In this document: positions 38,362 to 52,577 of the stretch, piece by piece | Layout of the letters: every line of letters begins with the position of its first letter | Numbering within the stretch: position 1 is the first letter of the stretch | Assembly (NCBI RefSeq): GCF_028736925.1 | Contig: NZ_JAQZAT010000015.1 | Span: forward strand, 1 to 64,000 | Origin: Flavivirga sp. 57AJ16 | GTDB lineage: Bacteria; Bacteroidota; Bacteroidia; Flavobacteriales; Flavobacteriaceae | Length of the DNA: 64,000 bases | Reading direction: 5' to 3' | Program-made: the position numbers and the translations under genes | Notes under the pieces: model-generated | What the model saw: the letters and a program-made list of their open reading frames with translations, nothing else | Database searches by the model: none | What the model was told of the DNA's origin: nothing

Positions 38362-39039
38362 TTATTCTATTCGCTTTAAACCTTCTAGACTTTCAATCTT
38401 TATTTGCTTGCCAATAGTAGAAATGAGTCCTTCTTTTTTAAATTGGGACAAGACTCTTATGGCAGACTCTGTAGCGGTACCAACTATATTGGCAAAATCT
38501 TCACGGGACAACAAAACACTAAGTGTACCATCTGGATTCACTCCAAAACTATCATGTATATATATTAATGTTTCTGCTAAACGTTGTCTTACGGATTTTT
38601 GAGCCATATTAACGATAATATCATCAGCTTCTTTTAAATCGTGTGCCATATCCTGCAAAACATCAAATGAAAACTTCGGGTTCTTTTGAAGGTCTGCCAT
38701 TATTTCACTTTTAGGTATAAAACAGACTTCCATATCATTTAAAGCCGTTGCCTGTAAATTAGAACTTTCGTTGCTTATCAAAGAACGCTGACCTAACAAT
38801 TGGCCTTTAACAACCATTTTTACGATTTGATCTTTACCATTTTCACTTAATTTAGAAAGTTTACAAATACCATCTTTAACGCAATAAACGCCATTTACAG
38901 CATCTCCTTCTTCAAAAATGACCGTGCCTTTTTTTATGATGTGAGAAGTTTTACAATTAGAAATACGTACCAACTCCTCTTTGGTCAAAGACTTAAGCGA
39001 ATTAAATTGCTTAATAATACATTGTTCACATTTGCTCAT
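38362..39039 (-). CDS. Fnr/Crp-family oxygen-responsive regulator
   Basis: A 225-residue regulator with a cyclic-nucleotide-type beta-roll (20-120), a dimerisation helix and a C-terminal winged helix. The helix-turn-helix LSREDFANIVGTATESAIRV aligns with Fnr, keeping Glu209 and Arg213 equivalents but with Ile for Ser212. Cys4 and Cys7 (CEQC), Cys29 and Cys106 (EVCFIPK, aligned to E. coli FNR Cys122 in VCEIPF) could hold an Fe-S cluster. It is divergent from ccoI, and ATGAY-N4-RTCAT palindromes precede ccoI, ccoS and hemN. I infer that it activates the cbb3 and haem genes at low oxygen. Confidence 0.88.
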   Translation of the reverse strand: MSKCEQCIIKQFNSLKSLTKEELVRISNCKTSHIIKKGTVIFEEGDAVNGVYCVKDGICKLSKLSENGKDQIVKMVVKGQLLGQRSLISNESSNLQATALNDMEVCFIPKSEIMADLQKNPKFSFDVLQDMAHDLKEADDIIVNMAQKSVRQRLAETLIYIHDSFGVNPDGTLSVLLSREDFANIVGTATESAIRVLSQFKKEGLISTIGKQIKIESLEGLKRIE

Positions 39040-39077
39040 ATATAATTAATTACCCATGAAGTAAAAATAAAGAAAAC

Positions 39078-39091
39078 ATGACAATTATCAT
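39078..39091 (+). promoter_or_regulatory. Fnr-type box upstream of ccoI
   Basis: ATGAC-AATT-ATCAT. Its centre is 36.5 bp upstream of the G at 39121 that ends GATTTTTG (39114-39121), a one-mismatch TAnnTTTG. This is the same spacing as at ccoS and hemN. Confidence 0.65.
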
Positions 39092-39147
39092 ATGATAAAG
39101 TGAAATCATTTATGATTTTTGTTGCAGGTATAAATGAGCAAATAATA

Positions 39148-41523
39148 ATGAGCAACAACACATGTTTTCATTGTGGGCTAGATGCTACAGCCTCTACAAT
39201 AACATTTGATAATAAATCATTCTGTTGTAATGGTTGTAAAACTGTTTACGAAATTTTCTCTGTAAACGATTTAACCTGTTACTACGATTTACAACAGGCA
39301 CCTGGAGCAACCCCTAAAGATATTGAAGGCAAATACAATTTTTTGGATAATGCTAAAATTGTTGAACAACTATTGGAGTTTAATAACGACGACACTCAAA
39401 TAGTCACTTTATATATCCCACATATTCATTGTAGTTCGTGCATCTGGATTCTAGAAAATTTAAATAAGCTGAATCCATCAATAAGTTCGTCTATAGTCAA
39501 TTTTGGTAAAAAAAATGTTCGAGTCACTTTTAATAGTGAATCGCTCACACTAAAAAACTTGGTTGCTTTATTAAGCAGTATCGGCTACGAACCTTTTATA
39601 AGTTTAGACGATTATAGTGTTGGCAAAAAACATACAGATCGCTCCCTGATATACAAATTGGGAGTCGCTGGTTTTGCCTTTGGAAATGTGATGTTTTTAT
39701 CATTCCCGGAGTACTTTCAAGTAGATGGTTTTTGGATAGAAAAATATAAACCCCTTTTTAGATGGCTCATGTTTTTCTTTTCGCTTCCTGTTGTTTTTTA
39801 TTCGGCACAAGATTATTTTATTTCTGCATTTAAAGGACTTCGATCTAAAATTTTAAATATCGATGTGCCTATCGCTTTAGGTGTTTTGGTATTATTTGTT
39901 AGAAGTTCTACTGAAATTATCTTTAATGTAGGTTCTGGTTTTTTTGATAGCTTAACCGGGCTTATCTTCTTTCTCTTACTGGGAAAGTTTTTTCAACAAA
40001 AAACATATACCTTTTTATCCTTTGAACGCGATTACAAATCGTATTTCCCTATCGGAATTACAAAAATAACAACAGAAGGGACAGAAGAATCCATACAAGT
40101 ATATGACATCGAAAAAGGCGACCGATTACTTATTAGAAATGAGGAGCTCATTCCCGTAGACTGTATTTTAATAAAAGGAACAGCACACATAGATTATAGC
40201 TTTGTAACGGGGGAATCCAAAACAGTATCAAAACAATCGGGCGATAAATTGTTTGCTGGCGGAAAACAATTAGATGGTAGCATTGAAGTAGATGTACTAA
40301 AATCGGTGGAACAGAGTTACCTGACACAACTTTGGAGTAACGATGTGTTTAAAAAAGACAAAGCATCATCATTTACAAATATTACCAATAGCATTAGTAA
40401 GCGCTTTACAATTGCCATTTTACTCATTGCATTAATCACTACTTCATTTTGGTTGTTAACAGACGCCAGTAAAGCATTAAATGTTTTTACTTCTGTATTG
40501 ATTATAGCCTGTCCATGTGCCATTGCCTTATCTGCTCCTTTCACTTTTGGAAATATATTACGCATTCTGGGCAAGAAAAAGTTCTATTTAAAAAATGCCA
40601 GTGTCATTGAGCAATTGTCTAAAATAAACACCATCATTTTTGATAAAACCGGTACCATAACTGTCAACAAGAAAACAACTATAAACTATGAAGGCTACGA
40701 GTTCTCTTTAGATGAAGAAACCTTATTAAAAAGCACATTACGAGGATCCAATCACCCATTAAGTCGATCGCTATACAATATCTTAAATAAACATGACATT
40801 GTCGATTTAGATACTTATAAAGAATTTTCAGGAAAGGGTATTGAAGCACAATATAAAAACCGTAAGATAAAAATAGGATCGGCTCCTTTTGTTGGTCATA
40901 CGAGTGACACGGCAACATTAAATACTACGGTGCACGTAAGTACCAATAACCAATATAAAGGCAAGTTTACATTCTACAATGCCTATAGAAAAGGAATATC
41001 ACAGCTATTCAATGCGCTTAAAGAAACCTATGACCTAGTTATTCTTTCTGGTGATAATGCAGGGGAAAAGGATAACTTAACAAAGCTACTTCCCACTAAA
41101 ACAAAGCTACTTTTCAATCAAAAACCAGAAGACAAATTAGAATACATTAAATACCATCAAGATGAAGGTGCCCATGTATTAATGATAGGCGATGGACTAA
41201 ACGATGCCGGCGCATTAGCGCAAAGTCATGTTGGTATTGTTATTTCGGAAAATGTAAACGTATTTTCCCCTGCCTGTGACGCTATTTTAGACGCTTCAAA
41301 ATTCGACCAATTATTTAATTATATAAAAATATCCAAATCCGCTATAAAAATTATTAAATGGAGTTTTTTACTCTCGTTCATATATAATAGTATCGGGCTC
41401 TATTTTGCAGTAACTGGTCAGTTAGCCCCCGTTGTAGCAGCTATACTAATGCCGCTCAGTTCCATTAGTATTGTCGCTTTTACAACGATAGCAACCAATA
41501 TTATTGGGCGCAAATTAGAATAA
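39148..41523 (+). CDS. ccoI: Copper-transporting P1B-type ATPase CcoI/FixI
   Basis: A 791-residue inner-membrane heavy-metal ATPase that supplies copper for cbb3 oxidase assembly. The N-terminal cysteine cluster (CFHCG..CCNGC) is typical of CcoI. It is followed by an HMA domain (HCSSCIWILENL), about eight membrane helices, the ion-site motif ACPCAIALS, the phosphorylation site DKTGT and the hinge GDGLNDAGAL. I chose ATG 39148, the first that leaves the promoter and Fnr box outside the gene. It is divergent from the fnr-like gene and upstream of the cco operon. Confidence 0.94.
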   Translation: MSNNTCFHCGLDATASTITFDNKSFCCNGCKTVYEIFSVNDLTCYYDLQQAPGATPKDIEGKYNFLDNAKIVEQLLEFNNDDTQIVTLYIPHIHCSSCIWILENLNKLNPSISSSIVNFGKKNVRVTFNSESLTLKNLVALLSSIGYEPFISLDDYSVGKKHTDRSLIYKLGVAGFAFGNVMFLSFPEYFQVDGFWIEKYKPLFRWLMFFFSLPVVFYSAQDYFISAFKGLRSKILNIDVPIALGVLVLFVRSSTEIIFNVGSGFFDSLTGLIFFLLLGKFFQQKTYTFLSFERDYKSYFPIGITKITTEGTEESIQVYDIEKGDRLLIRNEELIPVDCILIKGTAHIDYSFVTGESKTVSKQSGDKLFAGGKQLDGSIEVDVLKSVEQSYLTQLWSNDVFKKDKASSFTNITNSISKRFTIAILLIALITTSFWLLTDASKALNVFTSVLIIACPCAIALSAPFTFGNILRILGKKKFYLKNASVIEQLSKINTIIFDKTGTITVNKKTTINYEGYEFSLDEETLLKSTLRGSNHPLSRSLYNILNKHDIVDLDTYKEFSGKGIEAQYKNRKIKIGSAPFVGHTSDTATLNTTVHVSTNNQYKGKFTFYNAYRKGISQLFNALKETYDLVILSGDNAGEKDNLTKLLPTKTKLLFNQKPEDKLEYIKYHQDEGAHVLMIGDGLNDAGALAQSHVGIVISENVNVFSPACDAILDASKFDQLFNYIKISKSAIKIIKWSFLLSFIYNSIGLYFAVTGQLAPVVAAILMPLSSISIVAFTTIATNIIGRKLE

Positions 41524-42119
41524 GGGCTATAACACAGAGATACACTGAGTTTTCACGGAGGCTCACAAAGGTATTTGTAATAAACTCTGTGCGACTCTGT
41601 GAAACAATTAAAGGCTATAGCACAGAGGCGCACTGAGCTTTCACGGAGACCCGCAAAGACAGTTGTAATATTATAATGAGATCGATGGTAATGGAATCAA
41701 AACTCTGCGAAACTCTGTGAAATAACTAGAATAAGGGCTATGACACAGAGATGCACTGAGTTTTCGCAGAGACCCACAAAGGTCATTTGCAATACTCTAA
41801 TGAGATCGATGGTAATGGAATCCAAACTCTGCGAAACTCTGTGAAATAACTAGAATAAGGGCTATGACACAGAGATGCACTGAGTTTTCGCAGAGACCCA
41901 CAAAGGTCATTTGCAATACTCTAATGAGATCGATGGTAATGGAATCCAAACTCTGCGAAACTTTGTGATGCTCTGCGAAACTCTGTGAAACAACCAGAAT
42001 AAGGGTTATAACACAGAGATACACTGAGTTTTCACGGAGACCCGCAAAGACAGTTGTAATATTATAATGAGATCGATGGTAATGGAATCAAAACTCTACG
42101 AAACTCCGTGAAACAACCA
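41522..42119. repeat. Five tandem ~120-bp repeats between ccoI and ccoS
   Basis: Units begin AAGG(G)YTAT at 41522, 41611, 41733, 41857 and 42001. Units three and four share a 124-bp period and near identity. The first is shortened to about 89 bp and the fourth is lengthened by 20 bp through a small internal duplication. Each unit includes CACAGAG near its start and CTCTGCGAAACTCTGTG near its end, which can pair. No coding signal; the array lies directly upstream of the Fnr box of ccoS. Confidence 0.85.
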
Positions 42120-42141
42120 AATTGGAAATAAATAATGAAAC

Positions 42142-42155
42142 ATGATAAATATCAT
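42142..42155 (+). promoter_or_regulatory. Fnr-type box upstream of ccoS
   Basis: ATGAT-AAAT-ATCAT, a perfect 5-4-5 palindrome. Its centre (42148.5) is 36.5 bp from the last G of the promoter TAATTTTG, placing it near -42. Confidence 0.75.
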
Positions 42156-42177
42156 TTTTTAACAATAGGTATGACAG

Positions 42178-42185
42178 TAATTTTG
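42178..42185 (+). promoter_or_regulatory. -7 promoter element of the cco operon
   Basis: TAATTTTG matches TAnnTTTG, 21 bp before the ccoS ATG. Confidence 0.65.
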
Positions 42186-42205
42186 AACCATAACTTCAAA
42201 TAGGT

Positions 42206-42400
42206 ATGAGTGTTATTTATATTTTATTAGCTATAAGTATTATTGTAGCTGTTGGTTTCTTTATAGCCTTTATTATGGCTGTAAAAAAAGGACAGTACGA
42301 TGATAGCTATACCCCTTCTGTAAGGATGTTATTTGAAGATGAGCTCGTTAAAGAAAATTCCAATAAAACAATACTAAACAAAAAAGATCAACAACTATGA
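42206..42400 (+). CDS. ccoS: cbb3 oxidase assembly protein CcoS
   Basis: A 64-residue protein with one N-terminal membrane helix (VIYILLAISIIVAVGFFIAFIMAV) followed by the conserved GQYDD segment and a charged tail. CcoS is needed to insert haem b and CuB into the catalytic subunit. The size, motif and position before ccoNO fit. Its stop overlaps the ATG of a 21-codon frame (ATGA). Confidence 0.9.
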   Translation: MSVIYILLAISIIVAVGFFIAFIMAVKKGQYDDSYTPSVRMLFEDELVKENSNKTILNKKDQQL

Positions 42401-42462
42401 CCATGAAATCGCCATCACAAAAATTAATTAGAAAACCAATCCTAAATTTGGCGATTGCATAA
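42397..42462 (+). CDS. Possible 21-codon coupled ORF after ccoS
   Basis: The frame starts at an ATG overlapping the ccoS stop (ATGA) and ends TAA at 42462. The product is short, basic and not recognised. The sequence also holds an AATCGCCA/TGGCGATT inverted repeat, so an mRNA hairpin is an alternative explanation. Coding status is uncertain. Confidence 0.25.
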   Translation: MTMKSPSQKLIRKPILNLAIA

Positions 42463-42492
42463 GACATTTGAAAATCAAATAAACAATCCATT

Positions 42493-44685
42493 ATGAAAAT
42501 GCAGCAATTTCATTACGATAATAAAATCGTTAAAAATTTCTTATACGCCACCATGCTTTGGGGGGTTGTAGGGATGTTGGTAGGTCTACTACTGGCATTC
42601 ATGTTTTTATTCCCTAATCTAACCGACGGTATTTCATGGCTTAGCTTTGGTCGATTAAGGCCATTACATACCAATGCCGTAATTTTTGCTTTTGTTGGTA
42701 ATGCCATTTTTGCAGGAGTTTACTATTCCACACAACGTCTGTTAAAAGCTAGAATGTTTAATGACACCTTAAGTAAAATTAACTTTTGGGGCTGGCAACT
42801 TATTATTGTAGGTGCTGCAATCACTTTACCTTTGGGTTATACAACATCAAAAGAATATGCAGAGTTAGAATGGCCCTTTGATATTGCTATTGCAATTGTT
42901 TGGGTTGTTTTTGGATGGAATTTAATAGGTACGATCTTAAAAAGAAGACAGCGCCATTTATATGTTGCTATTTGGTTTTATATAGCCACATTCGTTACCG
43001 TTGCTGTACTTCATATTTTTAATAGTTTGGAATTACCTGTTAGTGCATTAAAAAGTTACTCGGTATATGCAGGCGTACAAGATGCTTTAGTACAATGGTG
43101 GTATGGGCACAATGCTGTAGCATTCTTTTTAACGACCCCCTTTTTAGGGCTTATGTATTATTTTATTCCTAAAGCAGCCAACAGACCCATATATTCTTAT
43201 AGGCTATCCATAGTGCACTTCTGGTCATTGATCTTTATATACATTTGGGCAGGCCCTCATCACCTATTGTATACAGCCTTGCCAGAATGGGCTCAAAACT
43301 TAGGTGTGGCTTTTTCGGTGATGCTATTGATGCCATCTTGGGGCGGTATGATAAACGGCCTTTTAACGCTTCGAGGTGCTTGGGACAAAGTGCGTACAGA
43401 TCCCGTTTTAAAATTTATGGTAGTAGCCATTACCGGGTATGGTATGGCAACCTTTGAAGGCCCGACACTTTCGCTTAAAAATGTAAATGCCATTGCACAC
43501 TTTACAGACTGGATTATTGCGCATGTACACGTAGGCGCCTTAGCATGGAATGGGTTCCTAACCTTTGGTATGGTATACTGGTTAGTGCCTAGGCTTTTTA
43601 AAACAAAACTATTCTCTGTTGGACTGGCCAATCTGCATTTCTGGATTGGCACACTGGGCATTATTATGTATGCCTTACCAATGTATGTTGCTGGCTTTAC
43701 ACAAGCGAGTATGTGGAAGCAATTCAATCCCGATGGTACATTGGTTTATGGCAATTTCTTAGAAACTGTTACAGAAATCATTCCCATGTACTGGATGCGT
43801 GCCATTGGAGGAACGCTATTCATTACAGGTATGCTAATTATGATTTACAATGTTATGGTAACCATTAAAAAAGGCAGCAAGGTTGAAAATGAATTGGCCG
43901 AAGCACCAGCTCTAGAGCGTGTTACCAAAAAACGTACTGCAAGTGAAGGATGGCACACTTGGTTAGAACGTAGACCAATTCAGTTAACACTTTTAGCAAC
44001 AGTGGCCATTTTAATAGGTGGCATTATTCAAATTGTACCAACCATTATGGTGAAATCCAATATTCCTACGATAGCCAGTGTAAAACCCTATACCCCTTTA
44101 GAATTAGAAGGTCGTGATATTTATATCCGTGAAGGCTGTGTAGGCTGCCATTCACAAATGATTCGCCCTTTTAGAAGTGAAGTAGAACGATATGGCGACT
44201 ATTCAAAAGCAGGAGAATTTGTTTACGACCATCCATTTCTGTGGGGCAGCAAACGTACCGGACCGGATTTACATAGAGTAGGTGGTAAATATTCTGATAA
44301 TTGGCACTTTAACCACATGTACGATCCGCAAAGTACCTCATCAGGATCCATTATGCCCCGTTATCCATGGTTAATAACCGGCAGTAGCAGTAAGTTGGAC
44401 AAATCTATGACTGAGTCTAAAATGAAAGCAATGGTATCATTAGGGGTTCCCTATACCGAAGAAGACATTACCAATGCTCAGCAAGATATGCTAGCACAAG
44501 GCACGCAAATAGAACAAAACCTGTATTCAGATCCCGATTTTGCCAATACATATGAAGCCGATAAAAAATATGCTTCCGAAAATGGCGAAGATTTTGTTGA
44601 AATGAAAAACAGGGAAATTGTGGCTCTTATAGCTTACTTACAACGTTTAGGAACCGATATCAAGGTAGAAACAGCACAAAAATAA
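42493..44685 (+). CDS. ccoNO: cbb3-type cytochrome c oxidase, fused subunits I and II
   Basis: A 730-residue membrane protein that reduces O2 to water with high affinity and pumps protons. The N-terminal CcoN part (about 1-480, twelve helices) shows haem and CuB His ligands in [24 protein letters not shown] and [13 protein letters not shown] membrane-anchored CcoO part follows from about 490 with one c-type haem motif, GCVGCHSQ, near 550, and a distal Met region SIMPRYPWL. CcoN-CcoO fusion is normal in Bacteroidota. It is the main structural gene of the Fnr-controlled operon. Confidence 0.96.
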
Positions 44686-44703
44686 CCATCAAAAACAATA
44701 CGC

Positions 44704-44901
44704 ATGTTAAAATTTGTAAAAAACCATATGGAGAGTATCACAGGCATCGAAATTTATCCGATGCTCTCTTTGCTCATCTTTTTTATATTTTTTGTGGTCC
44801 TTTTTTGGTGGGTTATCACTGCTAAAAAAGACTATATAAAAACCGTAAGTAACATTCCGTTAGACAACCACCACAATAACCAAAATGACGATATATCATG
44901 A
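44704..44901 (+). CDS. ccoQ: CcoQ-like cbb3 oxidase subunit IV
   Basis: A 65-residue protein with one membrane helix (YPMLSLLIFFIFFVVLFWWVIT) and a short polar tail. It lies between ccoNO and ccoP, as expected for CcoQ, which stabilises the complex. CcoQ sequences are poorly conserved, so the call leans on size, topology and place. Its stop overlaps the ATG of a 30-codon frame that leads into ccoP. Confidence 0.85.
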   Translation: MLKFVKNHMESITGIEIYPMLSLLIFFIFFVVLFWWVITAKKDYIKTVSNIPLDNHHNNQNDDIS

Positions 44902-44990
44902 AACCGACTGTTCAAAGCACAAGTTCATATTTGAATAAAATCGGAGATTGCATTTGTACATTAAAAAACAATAAAAAAACCATCAAATGA
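44898..44990 (+). CDS. Possible 30-codon ORF bridging ccoQ and ccoP
   Basis: The ATG overlaps the ccoQ stop (ATGA at 44898-44901) and its TGA overlaps the ccoP ATG (ATGA at 44987-44990). Ribosomes could therefore pass from ccoQ through this frame into ccoP without leaving the mRNA. The peptide is polar, with two Cys (GDCIC), and matches nothing I know. It may serve only as a translational coupler. Confidence 0.4.
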   Translation: MKPTVQSTSSYLNKIGDCICTLKNNKKTIK

Positions 44991-45877
44991 AAAAATTAAT
45001 CCCATCCTGGATACGAGTTCCAATAGTGTTCTTTATTATTTTTGGAACTGTTGAATATTTTGTAGACTCAGGAGATAAACCTGCATTTGTAGAATATCCG
45101 ATTATCTTACTTTTTCTTTTCTTAGTATTATTGATATTAATTGCCATTGAAGCCATTGTTAGTGCCTTAGAAAATATCATGCTGCAAAAGTTGGACGAAG
45201 AAGCTAGAGCAAGATTTTTACAGGAAAGACAGTATCGATTTACTTGGTTTAAAAACACCTATGCAAAGCTTCTTGGACAAAAACCAATTGAAGAAGAAGC
45301 CGAAATCATATTAGATCATAATTATGATGGTATAAAAGAACTGGATAATAACCTCCCACCTTGGTGGTTATATGGTTTTTACATGTCTATTATTTTCGCA
45401 GCTGTTTATTTATTAAAATATCATGTTTTTAATGGTGACACTCAAATCGATGAATTAGAAACCGAACTAGCAGAAGCAAAAACGGCTATTGAAGCTTATA
45501 AAAAAACGGCTAAAGATTTAGTAGATATAAATACGGTTACATTACTTACCGAAGCTGCAGACTTAAATGCAGGTAAAAAGATATTCGAAACCACATGTGT
45601 TGCTTGTCATATGGCCGATGGCGGTGGTGGTATTGGCCCAAACTTAACCGATCAAAATTGGATCTTAGGGGGCGATATAAAAAGCGTGTTTAGAACAGTA
45701 TCTGAAGGAGGCCGTTCTGGTAAAGGTATGATTGCCTGGAAGCAGCAACTAAAACCGTTAGAAATAGCACAAGTAGCAAGCTATGTTTTAACATTTCAAG
45801 GAACAACACCTGCCAATCCTAAAGCTCCAGAAGGTGACATATGGGTAGATAAAAATGCGCAAACAAATGAAAACTAG
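44987..45877 (+). CDS. ccoP: cbb3 oxidase subunit III CcoP, mono-haem
   Basis: A 296-residue membrane-bound cytochrome c. Two hydrophobic helices lie near 8-25 and 36-60. A third after the N(x)LPPWW motif (DNNLPPWWLYGFYMSIIFA, near 115-140) is the CcoP anchor, followed by a periplasmic domain with one CVACH haem site near 205 and the Met ligand in GMIAWK. Classical CcoP has two haems; a single site is common in Bacteroidota. It passes electrons to CcoO. A 15-bp hairpin follows the gene. Confidence 0.92.
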   Translation: MKKLIPSWIRVPIVFFIIFGTVEYFVDSGDKPAFVEYPIILLFLFLVLLILIAIEAIVSALENIMLQKLDEEARARFLQERQYRFTWFKNTYAKLLGQKPIEEEAEIILDHNYDGIKELDNNLPPWWLYGFYMSIIFAAVYLLKYHVFNGDTQIDELETELAEAKTAIEAYKKTAKDLVDINTVTLLTEAADLNAGKKIFETTCVACHMADGGGGIGPNLTDQNWILGGDIKSVFRTVSEGGRSGKGMIAWKQQLKPLEIAQVASYVLTFQGTTPANPKAPEGDIWVDKNAQTNEN

Positions 45878-45929
45878 TACTATTCAAGTAGACTCCCTAA
45901 CAACTTCGTCTAACTAGAATGAACAAAAT

Positions 45930-45966
45930 TAAGACCAGTCAGGTTTTAAAGACCTGACTGGTCTTA
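45930..45966 (+). terminator. Hairpin between ccoP and ccoG
   Basis: TAAGACCAGTCAGGT and its complement form a perfect 15-bp stem with a 7-nt loop (TTTAAAG). It lacks a long U-run, so it may attenuate or stabilise the upstream oxidase mRNA rather than fully terminate. Confidence 0.5.
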
Positions 45967-45980
45967 CAAAGCAAAAAATT

Positions 45981-47405
45981 TTGGAAACGCCAGAAAATGA
46001 AACATTCAGAGACTCTATAGGTACGGTTACCGAAGAAGGTAAACGTGCTTGGGTATTTCCAAAAAAACCCAGCGGAACATTTTATAAATACCGAAAATGG
46101 GTAAGTTATGGATTGCTGGCCTTTTTATTACTGTCTCCTTTTATAAAGATTAATGGGAATCAGTTTTTAATGTTCAATGTTTTAGAACGTCGTTTTAATA
46201 TTTTTGGATTTCCATTCTGGCCACAAGACTTTCATTTGTTTGTGGTCTCAATGATTATTGGTGTCATTTTCATTACACTTTTTACGGTGGCGTTTGGTAG
46301 GATTTTCTGTGGGTGGATCTGTCCTCAAACCATTTTTATGGAAATGGTCTTTCGTAGAATTGAATATTGGATCGAAGGTGATAGAGGCAAACAAATAAGA
46401 TTATCGAAACAACCGTGGAACGCAGAAAAAATTAGAAAAAAAGGATTAAAACTAGCCATATTTCTTATTATTTCTTTCATTATTTCTAATGTGTTTTTGG
46501 CATACTTAATTGGAAGCGATAAACTTATTCAATACATAATCGATGGGCCTTTTAACCACATAAGCACCCTAATTTCATTGACCATTTTTACGGCAGTATT
46601 TTATTTTGTTTTTGCATGGTTTAGAGAACAGGTTTGTATTATCGCTTGTCCTTATGGCAGATTACAAGGTGTGCTTTTAGACACCAAATCGATTGTTGTT
46701 GCCTACGATCATAAACGAGGTGAAGGAGAAAATGGCAGAAAGAAATTTAGAAAAAATGAAGACAGACAAACTTTAGGACATGGTGATTGTATTGATTGTT
46801 TTCAATGTGTCCATGTATGTCCAACTGGAATTGACATTAGAAACGGCACACAATTAGAGTGTGTAAACTGTACTGCCTGTATCGATGCATGTGATCATAT
46901 TATGGAAAGCATCGATCTCCCAAAAGGATTGATTAGATATACCAGTGAAGATAATATTGAAAAGAAAACACCTTTTAAATTAACAGCAAGGATAAAAGGC
47001 TACATTGCGGTTCTTTCTATTCTAATTGGCCTGCTAACCGGTATGCTGTTTTTAAGAAATGATGTAGAAGCCAATGTACTAAGGTTACCTGGCCAATTGT
47101 ACGAACATAAAGAAAATAACATAATAAGCAATGTCTTTACGTATAAATTGGTTAATAAAACAACGAAAGACATTCATGATGTTAGTTTTAAATTAATGTC
47201 GCATAAAGGAAATTTAAAATTGGTAGCTACCCACGATAGTTTTGTAGTACCAAGTCAAGGTATTTCAGAAGGAACATTATTTGTAGAGATTAATAACTCG
47301 GCCTTAACAGGTGATAGAAATAAAATAAAAATAGGCGTATATGCAGGTGATAAATTAATCGAGACGACAACAGCCAATTTTTTGGGACCGAGAAGTTATA
47401 AGTAA
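45981..47405 (+). CDS. ccoG: CcoG/RdxA cupric reductase, cbb3 assembly
   Basis: A 474-residue membrane protein that reduces Cu(II) to Cu(I) for oxidase assembly. It has about five helices, with FCGWICPQTIFMEMVFR and CIIACPYGRLQ between them. A bacterial 2x[4Fe-4S] ferredoxin domain follows, with CIDCFQCVHVCPTGIDIR and CVNCTACIDACD (near 265-305). A C-terminal immunoglobulin-like domain (IG_CcoG) occupies about 350-474. The start is TTG 45981, just after the hairpin; no ATG is closer in frame. Confidence 0.93.
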   Translation: METPENETFRDSIGTVTEEGKRAWVFPKKPSGTFYKYRKWVSYGLLAFLLLSPFIKINGNQFLMFNVLERRFNIFGFPFWPQDFHLFVVSMIIGVIFITLFTVAFGRIFCGWICPQTIFMEMVFRRIEYWIEGDRGKQIRLSKQPWNAEKIRKKGLKLAIFLIISFIISNVFLAYLIGSDKLIQYIIDGPFNHISTLISLTIFTAVFYFVFAWFREQVCIIACPYGRLQGVLLDTKSIVVAYDHKRGEGENGRKKFRKNEDRQTLGHGDCIDCFQCVHVCPTGIDIRNGTQLECVNCTACIDACDHIMESIDLPKGLIRYTSEDNIEKKTPFKLTARIKGYIAVLSILIGLLTGMLFLRNDVEANVLRLPGQLYEHKENNIISNVFTYKLVNKTTKDIHDVSFKLMSHKGNLKLVATHDSFVVPSQGISEGTLFVEINNSALTGDRNKIKIGVYAGDKLIETTTANFLGPRSYK

Positions 47406-47470
47406 AATAAATTGAATATTAACTAAAAAGGAGATTCCCTCCTTCGAGGGAATGACAAAAGAATATAGTT

Positions 47471-47917
47471 ATGAAAATAAACTGGGGAACAGGTATCGTA
47501 ATGGCCTTTATAGGTTTTATAAGCTTTATAATGTATTTTATTATTACAATGAACGTAAATGATGCTTATGACCACGATTTAGTGACAGAAGATTATTATG
47601 CCGAAGAATTAGCATATCAAAAAGATATTGATAAGCTAAAAAATGCTAAAAACCTGGGCGAAAACATTACCTATAAAAAAACTGTCGAAGGATTAATTAT
47701 TCAATTCCCTAAGGCTATAGACTTTAAAAAAATCACTGGAAAAATATTCCTATATAGACCATCTAACAAACACTTGGATTTTGATACCATTATTTCATTA
47801 TCCAAGCCTTATTTGCTCATACCTGACAATCGTTTGGTAGATGGTCGTTGGAATATTAAAATTGATTGGCAATATAACGGCATCTCTTATTTATTTAAAG
47901 AATCCATTAATTATTAA
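47471..47917 (+). CDS. ccoH: FixH/CcoH family protein
   Basis: A 148-residue protein with one N-terminal helix (GIVMAFIGFISFIMYFIIT) and a periplasmic domain with DHDLVTEDYYAEELAYQKDIDK, the conserved DLV..DYY motif of FixH. The family is needed for stable cbb3 complexes. It lies between ccoG and the SafE gene, with only 2 bp to the latter. Confidence 0.88.
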   Translation: MKINWGTGIVMAFIGFISFIMYFIITMNVNDAYDHDLVTEDYYAEELAYQKDIDKLKNAKNLGENITYKKTVEGLIIQFPKAIDFKKITGKIFLYRPSNKHLDFDTIISLSKPYLLIPDNRLVDGRWNIKIDWQYNGISYLFKESINY

Positions 47918-47919
47918 AC

Positions 47920-48621
47920 ATGTTAATTTCGGCATTCATATTAGGGCTTTTAGGAAGTTTTCACTGTTTGGGCATGTGTGGCCCCATTGCTTTTATGCTC
48001 CCTTTAGACCGAACAAATGCCTTTAAAAAAGCATCTCAGATCACTACTTATCATCTTGGGAGGCTATTAGCTTATAGTATTATTGGCTTAGTGTTTGGGA
48101 GTATTGGTAAGAGCCTGTATATTTTTGGGTTTCAACAACAACTTTCTATTATCACTGGGTTTTTAATGATTTTGATTGTTTTAATCCCACAAAGAACATT
48201 TAGCAAGTATAACTTCTCAAAACCTATTTATAAGCTTATTTCTAAAGTAAAATCCGCTTTGGGACATGCTTTAAAAAAGAAAACTTCCGATACGTTTTTA
48301 ACCATCGGTTTCTTAAACGGTTTTTTACCTTGTGGACTTGTTTATATGGCTTTATTTGGAGCCATTGCTGGTGGAGATATATTAAAAGGTAGCTTCTATA
48401 TGGCTGCTTTTGGTTTAGGCACCCTACCATTAATGACCGCTGCTATTTACTTTAGTAACTTTTTAAAAGGCACAGCCAGACAAAAAATACAAAAAGCAAT
48501 TCCAGTTTTTGTGGTCCTTATTGGCTGTCTTTTTGTTCTTCGAGGTTTGGGACTTGGAATACCTTACCTTTCCCCAACCCCTATTTTAAATAGTGTTTCT
48601 AGTGCCATTGAATGTCATTAA
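47920..48621 (+). CDS. SafE/TauE-type membrane protein of the cco cluster
   Basis: A 233-residue protein with six predicted helices. It opens with FILGLLGSFHCLGMCGPIAFML, which carries the His-Cys-x-x-Met-Cys pattern of the cbb3-linked SafE family, and has a second half with GFLNGFLPCGLVYMALFGA. Members next to ccoGHS are thought to take part in copper handling or oxidase maturation. It is the last cco gene, starting 2 bp after ccoH. Confidence 0.85.
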   Translation: MLISAFILGLLGSFHCLGMCGPIAFMLPLDRTNAFKKASQITTYHLGRLLAYSIIGLVFGSIGKSLYIFGFQQQLSIITGFLMILIVLIPQRTFSKYNFSKPIYKLISKVKSALGHALKKKTSDTFLTIGFLNGFLPCGLVYMALFGAIAGGDILKGSFYMAAFGLGTLPLMTAAIYFSNFLKGTARQKIQKAIPVFVVLIGCLFVLRGLGLGIPYLSPTPILNSVSSAIECH

Positions 48622-49137
48622 CCATGAAAGGATTAACATCCAATACTGAGCTGTCAATTTTTCAAGGCACCTAATAACTTACTGATTTTCATTACATTTA
48701 CCCCGATTTCTCTTTTTTATAGTATGGATATAAGAATTGGCCAAATCAATAATACCTTTAATAATAACAGAATTTACCTTGATTATAAGACACTTTTACA
48801 GGTACTCATCTTGACTTTTTCTATTTCCTAAAACCTGCAGGCAGGCAGGAATGGCTCATATTTGTTCATATTTCGTTCCTTTTCTTATTCGTAACGAAGT
48901 TATGACTTTCAAAAAGTGCCTTATCTGAACAAATTTTAGCTCATTTTAGTTCACTTAACTCTTATTATCATAAATCGGAGTTCATGAATCTTCGATTTCG
49001 GTTAAAAACAAAAAGTCAAGATGAGTTCTATTTTAGAAAATTTATTATCTTTAAAAACAGTAGATTTTTTTCAATAAAAAAACCAGCAACAAGTAATACG
49101 CACATCCTTGAGCATAATTTTAAAAACCAAAATTTGA
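48622..49137. other. Gene-free spacer after the cco operon
   Basis: AT-rich, with a CCTGCAGGCAGGCAGG repeat at 48834-48849 and TCATATTTGTTCATATTTCG-type duplications nearby. A 68-codon frame at 48984 overlaps the next gene out of phase and looks spurious. I see no RNA gene. Confidence 0.35.
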
Positions 49138-49977
49138 ATGAAAACAACAATTTTTTACTTCCTATTGTCTTTGACCTTAATTGCCTGTAACAGCAAAACC
49201 GCTTCTTCAGAAAAAGTCGATAATACTACAACACCAAAAAAAGACATACAAAAAAGTATCATTGATCTATCGCATACCTATTCTAGCGAGACTATTTATT
49301 GGGTAACCTCGCAAGAGTTTAAATTGGATACCGTATATAATGGGCAAACGGATAAAGGGTATTATTATTCGGCCAATAATTTTTGTACTGCAGAACATGG
49401 AGGTACTCATATAGATGCCCCCATTCACTTTGTTGAAAATGGCCAAACTGTAGATGAAATAGCTCTCGAAAAATTAATTGGAAATGCCGTCAAGATCGAT
49501 GTATATTCAAAGGCCATTAACAATCCTAACTATCTAGTGAGTATTGAAGATCTTAAGGCTTGGGAAATAAGTCAAGATATGACCATCCCAGAGGGAAGTA
49601 TTGTTCTATTACAAACGGGCTTTTCAAAATATTATCCCGACAAGATCAAATACTTAGGAACGGATAAACGCGGAGAAGATGCCATTAAGTTATTGCACTT
49701 TCCAGGACTTTCTCCAGACGCAGCCAAATGGTTAATACAAAATCGTAATATTAAATCTATAGGTATTGATACCCCTAGTATTGATTACGGACAATCCGAA
49801 TCCTTTGAAAGCCATATTGCTCTTTTAGAGAAAAATATTCCTGTTTTCGAAAACCTCACCAATCTGGATAAATTGCCTTTAAAAGGGTTTGAAATAATTG
49901 CCTTACCTATGAAAATAGAAGGCGGAAGTGGAGCGCCTTTAAGGATCATAGCCATGGTAAATGACAGGCAAAAATAA
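49138..49977 (+). CDS. Cyclase-family (kynurenine formamidase-like) lipoprotein
   Basis: A 279-residue metal-dependent hydrolase with a lipoprotein signal (SLTLIACNSK, Cys near 18). The signature AEHGGTHIDAPIHFV (HxGTHxDxPxH, near 90-105) supplies the metal ligands, and SIGIDTPSIDYG and GFEIIALPMKIEGGSGAPLR complete the fold. Related enzymes hydrolyse N-formylkynurenine or cyclic imides/isatin. An exported lipoprotein form is unusual for tryptophan catabolism, so the substrate is uncertain. It stands alone and converges with the uspA gene. Confidence 0.82.
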   Translation: MKTTIFYFLLSLTLIACNSKTASSEKVDNTTTPKKDIQKSIIDLSHTYSSETIYWVTSQEFKLDTVYNGQTDKGYYYSANNFCTAEHGGTHIDAPIHFVENGQTVDEIALEKLIGNAVKIDVYSKAINNPNYLVSIEDLKAWEISQDMTIPEGSIVLLQTGFSKYYPDKIKYLGTDKRGEDAIKLLHFPGLSPDAAKWLIQNRNIKSIGIDTPSIDYGQSESFESHIALLEKNIPVFENLTNLDKLPLKGFEIIALPMKIEGGSGAPLRIIAMVNDRQK

Positions 49978-50070
49978 CCACATACACAGATATATTAAAA
50001 AGGTATTAAATCCCAGGGCAAGCCCTGATTCCTGAAAAATGGACCTTAGGGGCGATATAACTTATAAAAA

Positions 50071-50098
50071 GGCGATCTAAAAATAAATGTAGATCGCC
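50071..50098 (-). terminator. Terminator of the uspA gene
   Basis: GGCGATCTA and TAGATCGCC arms enclose a 10-nt loop. On the minus strand the stem is followed by TTTTTATAAG, giving a proper U-run 58 bp after the uspA stop. Confidence 0.7.
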
Positions 50099-50156
50099 CA
50101 TTCTCAATAATGAATCACTAGCAATTAATACCATTTCCCTTTTGAAAGGGTATCCT

Positions 50157-50987
50157 CTAAATTTTAAATGTTATTACTGGTAAGGTTGAATGATTTGCAA
50201 CATCTTCACCGACACTTCCTTGAAAAAAATGGGATAGCCCTTTTCTTCCATGTGTGGGAATGGCAATTAAATCTGCTCCTATTTTAATTGAAGCACTTAA
50301 AATGCCATCCTCAACGATGTAATCTGAAGTATAATGAACAGCATCCATTCTATCTAAATTTCCATCAGCTTTGGTAAAGAAGTTAACAGCAAGCCTTTCT
50401 ATTTCTGAAGCGCTTTTAAATCGGTCATTTGGCAAATTCACATGAACCAAATACAATTTAGAACCCATCTTATCAAACATTTTAACGGCATTCAAATAAG
50501 CCGTAATGGAATCCTCTGAAAAATCGCAAGCATAGGCCACCACCTCAAAATTAACCTGGGGCACATGATCCTTAACGACCAATACCGGAATATCTGCATG
50601 TCTCACAACACGTTCTGTATTAGAGCCAATAAAAAATTCCTTAACACCACTGGTTCCATGGGATCCTATGACTATAAGATCTGCATCATACTTTTTTGCA
50701 ATGTTATTAACTTCGCTAAACACCTTAAAATGCTTAACAATTGGTGTTACTTTAATATCTTTTAGATAATCTTTTTTAAGAAAATCTTCAAATCTTTGTT
50801 CTGCCAATTTTAAAAAATAAATTATTTTTTGAGGTTGTTCGCCTCCTGCTGTAAGTATAACTTCAGACATTTCTAACATATGTAACGCTAGCAATTCAGC
50901 ATCATGCTTTTTTGCCAACTTTGCTGCTGCATTTAAAGCGTATTCTGAATGTTCAGAAAAATCTATCGGTACAATAATCTTCTTCAT
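50157..50987 (-). CDS. Tandem UspA-domain universal stress protein
   Basis: A 276-residue cytoplasmic protein with two Usp domains (about 1-145 and 150-276). Both keep ATP-type loops: GSHGTSGVKEFFIGSNTERV in the first and PTHGRKGLSHFFQGSVGEDV in the second. Usp proteins respond to starvation, low oxygen or other stress. Its place beside the cbb3 and hemN genes suggests an oxygen-limitation role. An AGGAT-ATTT-ATCCT palindrome lies upstream at 51037-51050 but differs from the Fnr boxes and lacks their promoter spacing. Confidence 0.9.
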   Translation of the reverse strand: MKKIIVPIDFSEHSEYALNAAAKLAKKHDAELLALHMLEMSEVILTAGGEQPQKIIYFLKLAEQRFEDFLKKDYLKDIKVTPIVKHFKVFSEVNNIAKKYDADLIVIGSHGTSGVKEFFIGSNTERVVRHADIPVLVVKDHVPQVNFEVVAYACDFSEDSITAYLNAVKMFDKMGSKLYLVHVNLPNDRFKSASEIERLAVNFFTKADGNLDRMDAVHYTSDYIVEDGILSASIKIGADLIAIPTHGRKGLSHFFQGSVGEDVANHSTLPVITFKI

Positions 50988-51151
50988 ATTTTTTAGTTTT
51001 ATAATGAATATCTTTTTACTTCATGTTCCTAAATTAAGGATATTTATCCTACATTATCATAAGCGTATAGCCAAAAGGTTTAAACCCACCTTTTAGCGTC
51101 ACAACACCATGACATGGATCCCTTTGTTAAGCATCAAGGTTTTCTTTTTAG

Positions 51152-52516
51152 TTAAACCGTCTTAGAAAACAACTGGGTATCTGGCTGTTTTCTTTGTAAT
51201 AATAGATCAAAAGCCATACAAATGTTTCTAACAAATGGCCGGCCTTTTTTGGTTACTTGAATGGTGTTGGAACCAACCTTAAGCAATCCATCTACTTCCA
51301 TTTCTTTTAACCGGTCAATAACATCTGGTAATCCATTAAAATCAAGATTGTTTTGTTCCCAGGTCGTCTTAAAGCGACACATTAAATTAAGTATATGCTC
51401 TCTTATAATTAAATCTTCCTCATTGAGAATATGCCCTCTATAAACTGGTAAAATATTATCTTTTAATAAATCATGGTAGGCTTCGATACTTTTAACGTTT
51501 TGAGAAAATCCGTACCAACTATCACTAATAGATGATACACCTAAACCAATCATAACCTGAGTTTTCGAAGCTGTATATCCCATAAAGTTTCGATGCAAGT
51601 GATCATTTACCATAGACTCATATAACGAGTCTGTAGTTAAAGCAAAATGATCCATCCCTATGTCACTGTAACCAACTTCGGAAAGTAATTGTTTACCCAA
51701 TTCATACTGTTGCCTTTTTAATTCGGCAGATGGTAAATCGGAATCATGAAATCCGCGTTGGCCGTTCCCTTTCATCCATGGCACATGAGCATAACTATAA
51801 AATGCCAATCTATCTGGGAGTAATGTTTTTGTTTTTAAAATAGTTTCTTTTACATGCTCTAAAGTTTGAAACGGTAAACCAAAAATAATATCATGACCAA
51901 TCGAAGTATATCCAATATCCCTGGCCATATCGGTTGCCCGTTTTACATTTTCAAAGGGTTGAATTCTATGGATCGCTTTTTGTACTGCTTCATTATAATC
52001 TTGTACACCATAGCTCACCCTTCTAAATCCAACATCATAAAGTGCTTGTAAATGTCCTCGAGTGGTATTATTGGGGTGTCCCTCAAAACTAAACTCATGG
52101 TCATTTGCAAGTATGGAGTGTTTTAAGATGCCCTTAATCAATCGCTGCAAATTTTCAGGCCTAAAAAAAGTAGGTGTACCACCTCCTAAGTGCAGTTCTT
52201 TAACAATGGGTTTTTCATCAAATAATGCTAAGTATAAATCCCACTCTTTTAGAACAGCATCAATATAGGGAGACTCAACACTATGTTGTTTTGTAATACG
52301 CTTATTACACCCGCAAAACGTACACAAACTCTCGCAATATGGCAAGTGAATATAAAGGCTTATACCTTCTTCCGAATTACTTTCTTTATAGGATTGTATT
52401 AAAGACGACTTCCATTTTTTTAAAGAAAATGTCTCATTGTTCCAATAAGGAACGGTTGGATAACTCGTATAACGAGGCCCAGCAATATTGTATTTATTTA
52501 CTAAAGAATTTAACAT
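51152..52516 (-). CDS. hemN: Oxygen-independent coproporphyrinogen III oxidase
   Basis: A 454-residue radical-SAM enzyme that converts coproporphyrinogen III to protoporphyrinogen IX without O2. The cluster motif is YCESLCTFCGCNKR (CxxxCxFC plus a further Cys, near 57-70). GGGTPTFF, the HemN-typical NxxSYGVQD variant (RVSYGVQDYNEAV) and the C-terminal HemN domain follow. I prefer ATG 52516 over the ATG 9 bp upstream, as MLNSLVNKYNIAGPRYTSYP is the usual N-terminus. An Fnr box and TATTTTTG promoter precede it, consistent with haem supply for the cbb3 oxidase at low oxygen. Confidence 0.94.
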   Translation of the reverse strand: MLNSLVNKYNIAGPRYTSYPTVPYWNNETFSLKKWKSSLIQSYKESNSEEGISLYIHLPYCESLCTFCGCNKRITKQHSVESPYIDAVLKEWDLYLALFDEKPIVKELHLGGGTPTFFRPENLQRLIKGILKHSILANDHEFSFEGHPNNTTRGHLQALYDVGFRRVSYGVQDYNEAVQKAIHRIQPFENVKRATDMARDIGYTSIGHDIIFGLPFQTLEHVKETILKTKTLLPDRLAFYSYAHVPWMKGNGQRGFHDSDLPSAELKRQQYELGKQLLSEVGYSDIGMDHFALTTDSLYESMVNDHLHRNFMGYTASKTQVMIGLGVSSISDSWYGFSQNVKSIEAYHDLLKDNILPVYRGHILNEEDLIIREHILNLMCRFKTTWEQNNLDFNGLPDVIDRLKEMEVDGLLKVGSNTIQVTKKGRPFVRNICMAFDLLLQRKQPDTQLFSKTV

Positions 52517-52533
52517 ACCTAACATTTATATTT

Positions 52534-52541
52534 CAAAAATA
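52534..52541 (-). promoter_or_regulatory. -7 promoter element of hemN
   Basis: Minus-strand TATTTTTG matches TAnnTTTG, 17 bp before the preferred hemN ATG. Confidence 0.6.
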
Positions 52542-52563
52542 TAACATAGTATACTTTAAAAAT

Positions 52564-52577
52564 ATGACATATGTCAT
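52564..52577 (-). promoter_or_regulatory. Fnr-type box upstream of hemN
   Basis: ATGAC-ATAT-GTCAT, a perfect palindrome. Its centre (52570.5) is 36.5 bp from the last base of the hemN -7 element, exactly as at ccoS and ccoI. It may also affect the divergent YceI gene. Confidence 0.75.

Follow-up and report, generated by a model that had tools for sequence, protein, structure and literature searches.

A predicted low-oxygen regulon with Crp/Fnr-type operators at a single promoter phase in Flavivirga sp. 57AJ16 and other Flavobacteriaceae

The window analysed here is a stretch of 64,000 nucleotides from Flavivirga sp. 57AJ16 (assembly GCF_028736925.1, contig NZ_JAQZAT010000015.1, labelled C7) in which a gene for a Crp/Fnr-type regulator lies close to genes for a cbb3 cytochrome oxidase, its copper pump CcoI and the haem synthesis enzyme HemN. 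Three palindromes located in front of ccoI, ccoS-NO-Q-P and hemN are very probably operators of one low-oxygen regulon under a Crp/Fnr-type class II activator, whose binding and oxygen response are both predicted. We infer that the window protein rather than a paralog binds these sites, that it activates and that it senses oxygen. In the proposed mechanism, the regulator would bind ATGAY-N4-RTCAT centred at -41.5, upstream of the -7 box of the Bacteroidota housekeeping sigma factor, and would activate in a class II manner. Oxygen would be sensed by a [4Fe-4S] cluster on Cys4, Cys7, Cys53 and Cys106, and cluster loss in oxygen would turn the regulon off; at low oxygen, the high-affinity cbb3 oxidase, its copper pump, the enzyme of oxygen-free haem synthesis, NirK, NosZ and Pta would be made.

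The motif, its single phase, its conservation across genera, the gene set and the rise of site number with the presence of the regulator are computed results. In a scan of the window, ATGAYNNNNRTCAT was matched exactly by the three palindromes of Table 1. At ccoI, ccoS and hemN alike, 22 bp separate the palindrome from the -7 octamer, and the final G of the octamer (39121, 42185 and 52534, respectively) is each time 36.5 bp from the palindrome centre, so that the positions and the spacing given in an earlier note on this DNA were exact. That note had also placed a TAnnTTTG-type -7 element at all three promoters. TAnnTTTG is fitted by only two of these window octamers, TAATTTTG of ccoS and TATTTTTG of hemN, whereas the ccoI octamer, GATTTTTG, is degenerate and departs from it. 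According to the main text of PMC9723704, the -7 box of sigma-A promoters of Flavobacterium psychrophilum occupies -12 to -5, which puts the operator centre at -41.5 at all three promoters. If the -7 box has this place in Flavivirga, the operators would stand at the class II activator position, in agreement with the distance of about 42 bp to the start that had been proposed. A fourth exact palindrome of the window, at 37434-37447, was rejected as a site; it is found within the open reading frame 36089-38035 and is absent from the promoter-phased matches. Palindromes with at most one mismatch number 16 in the window against 10.1 expected, which is not significant as 7 of 100 shuffles reach 16.

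The whole genome (4.92 Mb) was searched with a reversed pattern of the same composition as control. The palindrome by itself was rejected as evidence, since 58 exact copies were found genome-wide against 30 for the control and its count inside the window is within chance. When TAnnTTTG was added at a gap of 18-28 bp, eight matches were observed, seven at gap 22 and one at gap 23, and none for the control. At gap 22 alone, 0.083 matches were expected from the TAnnTTTG density of the window (binomial P about 4e-12). This fixed-phase search, which the earlier note had proposed, yields sites before ccoSNOQP, hemN, a cytochrome c gene with nosZ, nirK and pta; the gap-23 site is divergent from the nosZ operon and precedes an rrf2-like gene. 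Allowing one mismatch in the -7 box adds ccoI and a gene similar to those of universal stress proteins (Usp), then a cytochrome-like gene (C11:54025, named by eye); such a search gives 34 matches in the genome and 17 in the control, and matches beyond the exact set were left out of regulon membership. Two further observations concern single sites. The rrf2-like gene behind the gap-23 site (contig C14) is broken by stops, and an intact copy is present behind a phased site in another genome (G017). At C23:136059-138667, the variant palindrome TGACTTAAGTCAC forms a gap-22 site before a metallo-beta-lactamase-fold gene (by eye), with another Crp-type regulator about 2.4 kb away; this site possibly belongs to a separate regulon at the same phase.

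The claim that one consensus and phase serves respiratory genes gained support from other genera, where the same phase is found again together with a large part of the target genes. Across 60 Flavobacteriaceae genomes, own included, a search over 31 gaps gave 324 matches against 44 in the reversed control (1.4 per gap). At exactly gap 22 there are 213 matches, distributed over 50 of the 60 genomes, with a single one in the control, and the other 30 gaps average 3.7; among the 150 matches listed, 90 are at gap 22 and 7 at gap 23. That base composition or an extended promoter motif has produced the phased pattern, with no operator in it, is very improbable: the palindrome is A+T-rich and frequent, as the 58 genomic copies and the chance-level window count indicate, but the reversed pattern of identical composition gives 1 match against 213 in the 60 genomes, the sites nearly disappear class-wide where both regulator types described below are absent, and the target genes recur. 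Besides gap 22, a mild palindrome excess was seen at gaps 34-38 (16 of the 150 matches listed), several of these having similar sequence before the -7 box; the excess might mark a further operator position at a longer distance.

Gene order was compared in 80 related loci, fetched from titled records by similarity to the regulator, whose nearest matches (92-97% identical) come from Flavivirga species and uncultured Flavobacteriaceae. The ccoI gene is divergent from the regulator gene within 500 bp in 69 of the 80, and 67 have an exact palindrome no more than 400 bp away from the start of the regulator gene. In these 67 loci, the ccoI -7 box has TTTG at gap 22 in 64 cases, A at -11 in all 67 and T at -12 in only one, and this regular departure at the first base would fit activator dependence of the promoter. 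In parallel, 74 of the 76 related loci that extend as far as ccoNO have, in the 700 bp before this gene, the exact palindrome followed at gap 22 by NAnnTTTG. Just downstream of the predicted ccoI transcription start, the bases AGGTATAAATGAGCAAAT (39126-39143) are strongly conserved in many relatives though they lie upstream of the start codon; they are perhaps an initial-transcript or translation element. A site facing the regulator's own gene was considered and rejected: the minus-strand octamer 22 bp from the ccoI palindrome, GGGTAATT, is no -7 box, and class II autoactivation of the regulator gene is for this reason not proposed.

The genes behind the sites were collected from 100 stretches, one of which is a duplicate, leaving 99 sites outside the own genome. 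As target was taken the longest same-strand open reading frame starting within 400 nt of the -7 box, a rule that may skip a short first gene such as ccoS, and it was compared by blastp (E <= 1e-5) with the own-genome targets together with the receiver-Crp and kinase proteins introduced below. The chosen frame starts within 260 nt at 93 of the 99 sites, and 56 of the 99 match the reference set. Genomes with the FNR-type regulator only (70 sites, 19 genomes) account for 43 of these matches, namely ccoNO 13, hemN 8, thioredoxin-like 6, cytochrome c (nos) 6, pta 3, nirK, ccoI and Usp 2 each and rrf2 1, two of the 70 sites being without a frame by the 400-nt rule. In genomes with receiver-Crp only (29 sites, 9 genomes), 13 of 29 sites are matched: cytochrome c (nos) 4, Usp 4, hemN 2, and ccoNO, thioredoxin-like and PAS kinase 1 each. 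Four of the six Usp matches (25-33% identity) and the kinase match (24%) are weak. Other targets, identified by eye and in part checked against protein families, include quinolinate synthase NadA, methylmalonyl-CoA epimerase, a pyridine-nucleotide oxidoreductase, a ribosome-hibernation-type protein and an Mrp-type iron-sulfur carrier; NorC and a truncated haemoglobin were also found behind sites, named by eye and with no NCBIfam match. Phased sites and their recurrence across genera thus support the low-oxygen regulon of the earlier note, which joined copper delivery, cbb3 oxidase and haem synthesis. Its scope is wider than had been stated, with denitrification, acetate formation and redox proteins in addition. 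In F. psychrophilum, cbb3 oxidase and haem-pathway genes are up under oxygen limitation (PMC9723704, main text), which is independent support for the co-regulation and not for the regulator. The pentamer AGGTA was considered as a second shared element after the -7 box. It is found at 17 of the 99 sites, where about 3.7 were expected, but the many orthologous ccoS promoters among them may account for this excess.

The regulator carries the Pfam domains PF00027 (cNMP_binding) and PF13545 (HTH_Crp_2) above cut-off, and Foldseek matched its AlphaFold2 model, of low confidence with a predicted local distance difference test (pLDDT) score of 69, to Crp/FNR structures. The best of 13 NCBIfam families is Fnr, at 91.1 bits and far under the cut-off of 228, and the closest solved chain by sequence is 2gau, a Crp/Fnr protein of Porphyromonas gingivalis. 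In an alignment with Escherichia coli FNR, Cys20, Cys23 and Cys122 fall on C4, C7 and C106 of the regulator. Together with Cys53, these residues are kept by all 37 distinct orthologs of the family and by all 19 class-level homologs with an examined locus, out of 49 genomes matched; two of the 19 are from the own family. The four are probably the ligands of the predicted [4Fe-4S] cluster. In the model (pLDDT 69), Cys53 is placed in strand 50-56 and Cys106 in strand 103-109, and the corresponding strands of CRP are neighbours. Cys29 and Cys59 were rejected as the missing ligand, as they are kept in just 21 and 27, respectively, of the 37 distinct family orthologs. The recognition-helix residues E191, I194 and R195 (E..IR) are invariant in family orthologs and class-level homologs; E. 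coli FNR has a serine at the I194 position, a change that may go with the changed outer operator base. The regulator is FNR-like and not a canonical FNR, because the Cys29 ligand is absent, the operator differs and the NCBIfam score is under its cut-off. It also differs from FixK and FixKf, which have no cluster cysteines, in retaining Cys 4, 7, 53 and 106. In two small genomes, shortened relatives of the regulator (L206 in G043, L207 in G020) keep these four cysteines, with an N-terminal C-x2-C and a third cysteine nearby; by eye, one of them lies next to cytochrome oxidase genes and the other next to a nirK-like gene.

A regulator using the same operator and class II mechanism to sense redox state, nitric oxide or haem instead of oxygen is unlikely, although the counterpart of FNR Cys29 is missing and the Bacteroidota Crp/Fnr proteins PgRsp and HcpR are described, in the parts of the literature consulted, as binding haem or sensing redox state. 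Four invariant cysteines are the number needed for a [4Fe-4S] cluster, three of them align with FNR ligands, and many of the targets are oxygen-limitation genes.

Among the four HTH_Crp_2 proteins of the genome (211-249 aa), the regulator is the only one on the window contig, in keeping with the earlier statement that it is the sole Crp/Fnr-type gene in the window. The best HTH_Crp_2 match in the genome is a paralog on contig C10, which occupies a long branch inside the FNR-type side of a FastTree tree and might respond to nitrate or be a further regulator for oxygen. Its E..IR residues, its N-terminal C-x2-C-x4-C and the presence of nirK and nosZ among the targets speak for a regulon that answers nitrogen oxides as well as oxygen, with the operators of the own genome read by this paralog (a 262-aa open frame) or by both proteins. 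This is quite unlikely: the ortholog of the window regulator adjoins ccoI in the 69 of 80 related loci mentioned above, 36 of 37 genomes with this ortholog have phased sites, and Cys53 is absent from the C10 paralog. Moreover, matches in its score range (134-149 bits), which may differ in type, were listed in only 9 of the 60 genomes, and at least one of them (G031) is without the N-terminal cysteines.

Genomes with sites but without an ortholog of the regulator led to a second protein, receiver-Crp, of about 350 aa with Response_reg, cNMP_binding and HTH_Crp_2 domains in the four examined. A histidine-kinase gene adjoins it in 9 of 9 loci opened, with Usp-like genes beside several, and the linked kinases have PAS, HisKA and HATPase domains. 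Among solved structures, DosP and FixL come closest to the PAS domain of the L199 kinase, the sole one compared, and this domain aligns at the histidines of FixL YRHEH; the L197 kinase has a different build. The 68-row FastTree tree groups all 30 receiver-Crp rows (26 distinct) in a single clade, with a support of 0.996, next to the FNR-type side, and E. coli FNR falls outside. None of the 30 rows has a cysteine at 4, 7 or 53, 11 have Cys106 and all 30 have E..IR, and receiver-Crp of related genomes would probably read the same operator. The own genome is without receiver-Crp: no match was found at E <= 1e-70, and its four HTH_Crp_2 proteins are only 211-249 aa long. Given this protein in relatives and the C10 paralog with its E..IR, assigning the sites to the window regulator alone is something we infer. 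At one locus (L216, G007:C24), receiver-Crp and a PAS kinase stand among Usp-like genes upstream of di-iron repair-type and quinol nitric oxide reductase-like genes (by eye), hinting at a possible role of receiver-Crp in nitric oxide handling.

Site number follows the regulators. In the family, there are on average 3.5 sites per genome with the FNR-type regulator only (24 genomes), 6.6 with both (13), 2.9 with receiver-Crp only (11), 0.9 with neither (10) and 0.5 with short variants (2). Genomes with either regulator differ from those with none (Mann-Whitney P 2e-5, taking genomes as independent with phylogeny uncorrected). Class-wide, 119 genomes gave 80 sites in 26 genomes with both, 31 in 23 with the FNR-type only, 22 in 36 with receiver-Crp only and 1 in 34 with neither, against 1 in the control; in this count the FNR-type regulator was taken more broadly (E <= 1e-45), and the receiver-Crp profile was scored on the best 17 candidates per genome at most. 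No exact site was found in 23 of the 36 receiver-Crp-only genomes.

Several points weigh against a single oxygen-responsive regulon read by the window protein. The position of FNR Cys29 is an asparagine (N13) in 81 of 81 close orthologs, and the C10 paralog, having the same E..IR residues, could share the sites. The transcription starts of the window are inferred positions. Genes outside the reference set, some without a clear oxygen link, follow 43 of the 99 sites. Divergence of ccoI is limited to the 69 of 80 loci, and 13 of the 80 are without a perfect palindrome; their best near-match within those 400 bp has one mismatch in 4, two in 8 and three in 1, and TTTG at gap 22 with a site near the regulator occurs only in L114 and L165. 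The comparison of site counts carries the phylogenetic limit given above. Finally, one genome has the regulator and no exact phased site (G026), another a regulator and no site (G022), and three have 6, 2 and 1 phased sites without either regulator (G048, G051 and G023), G048 being 82% complete with 6% contamination.

A broader reading of these data has about even chances. In Bacteroidota, one ancient low-oxygen operator (ATGAY-N4-RTCAT, centre -41.5) would be served by two interchangeable sensors with sister DNA-reading domains. One would be the FNR-like iron-sulfur protein with a rearranged ligand set, in which Cys53 and Cys106 of the beta-roll join a pair of N-terminal cysteines, and the other receiver-Crp, phosphorylated by the adjacent FixL-like haem kinase and thus resembling FixJ and FixK in one chain. 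Lineages would keep one, both or neither while the core targets stay unchanged.

The regulator resembles FNR of E. coli and Aliivibrio fischeri in its Crp/Fnr fold, in an operator with a TGA/TCA core and 4-bp spacer, in its respiratory and haem targets, and in cysteines that align with Cys20 and Cys23 of the N-terminus and Cys122 of the core in E. coli. The class II position of FNR is -41.5, the place predicted for the operator described here. It differs from FNR in having N13 for Cys29 and an invariant Cys53 instead, E..IR for E..SR, TAnnTTTG at -7, a score far under the NCBIfam Fnr cut-off and ATGAY-N4-RTCAT as operator, the FNR consensus being TTGAT-N4-ATCAA in the relevant passages of PMC1274295. 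In Alphaproteobacteria, the FnrN and FixLJ-FixK systems vary or replace each other (PMC4999443, in part), and there too cco, haem, nir and nos targets are under an iron-sulfur Crp/Fnr protein or under a cysteine-less one with a two-component system. Unlike in FixLJ-FixK, receiver and Crp domain form one chain here, no separate FixJ would be needed, and phylum, operator and promoter are others. HcpR, PgRsp and CrpPg of P. gingivalis are likewise, in the accounts consulted, Crp/Fnr proteins of the same phylum. The HcpR2 branch motif is GTAAC-N4-GTTAC, with hcp genes alone as predicted regulon in most Bacteroides and in P. gingivalis (same passages of PMC1274295); HcpR differs in this motif, compared as motif text only, and no cbb3 regulon appears in the HcpR-type descriptions examined. 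The sigma-A promoters SM1-3 of F. psychrophilum share the TAnnTTTG -7 box and the rise of cbb3 and haem genes under oxygen limitation, and the main text of PMC9723704 contains neither 'crp' nor 'palindrom' as a term. A Flavobacteriales Crp/Fnr homolog is predicted to be MalR-like and carbon-sensing in the consulted part of PMC8510549. A literature search, mainly of open-access texts without supplements, found neither an FNR-type oxygen regulon nor an ATGAY-N4-RTCAT operator nor a class II activator position described in Flavobacteriaceae. An operator with one exact phase makes the low-oxygen and nitrous oxide (N2O)-reduction regulon readable from flavobacterial genomes. It also suggests that class II geometry has been kept on a different sigma factor with the unusual Bacteroidota promoter (TAnnTTTG at -7), and it leads to the predictions that an oxygen-sensing cluster is bound by a new combination of cysteines and that oxygen sensors of two kinds read the same sites.

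Table 1. Features of the window and other sites cited (positions without a contig label are those of the window; C labels denote contigs of the own genome, G labels other genomes)
Feature	Position	Strand	Basis or remark
Crp/Fnr-type regulator, 225 aa, inferred low-oxygen activator	38362..39039	-	Open reading frame; Pfam cNMP_binding + HTH_Crp_2; NCBIfam Fnr best
Operator ATGACAATTATCAT before ccoI, between ccoI and regulator gene	39078..39091	+	Exact match
ccoI -7 element GATTTTTG, gap 22	39114..39121	+	Sequence reading
ccoI-type copper P-ATPase; first in-frame ATG after promoter, leader ~22 nt	39148..41523	+	Open reading frame, NCBIfam, Pfam; start codon from sequence
Operator ATGATAAATATCAT before ccoS-NO-Q-P	42142..42155	+	Exact match
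-7 element TAATTTTG, gap 22	42178..42185	+	Phased genome search
ccoS, 65 codons including stop	42206..42400	+	Sequence; name by position and by eye
ccoNO fusion, cbb3 oxidase subunits I/II	42493..44685	+	Open reading frame, NCBIfam, Pfam
ccoP-like diheme cytochrome c, same inferred operon as ccoNO	44987..45877	+	Open reading frame; name by eye
ccoG-like ferredoxin-type protein, same inferred operon as ccoNO	45981..47405	+	Open reading frame; name by eye
Universal stress protein downstream of hemN	50157..50987	-	Open reading frame, Pfam
hemN, oxygen-independent coproporphyrinogen III oxidase	51152..52525	-	TIGR00538, 429 bits vs cut-off 325
hemN -7 element TATTTTTG, gap 22	52534..52541	-	Phased genome search
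Operator ATGACATATGTCAT before hemN	52564..52577	-	Exact match
Gap-22 site before cbb3 oxidase (ccoSNOQP)	C7		
Gap-22 site before hemN	C7		
Gap-22 site before cytochrome c, then a nosZ start	C14:66065		
Gap-22 site before copper nitrite reductase NirK	C15		
Gap-22 site before phosphate acetyltransferase pta	C2		409 bits vs cut-off 418, on 473 residues
Gap-22 site before thioredoxin-family protein	C1		PF14595
Gap-22 site before 131-aa protein	C14:58418		No family match
Crp/Fnr paralog	C10:33379-34014		N-terminal C-x2-C-x4-C, E..IR; adjoins nitrate-transport-like gene (by eye)
Gap 34-38 examples	G044:C1:37799 and 38892, G044:C2:155918, G017:C8:34060, G019:C17:11124, G034:C1:1100148		

For hemN, the ATG at 52516 is likelier as start codon than the start of the open reading frame at 52525, because the inferred transcription start at about 52529 is only about 4 nt from 52525 and the starts of orthologs fit 52516. 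The universal stress protein gene downstream possibly shares the hemN transcript, and in relatives a phased operator precedes other Usp-type genes.

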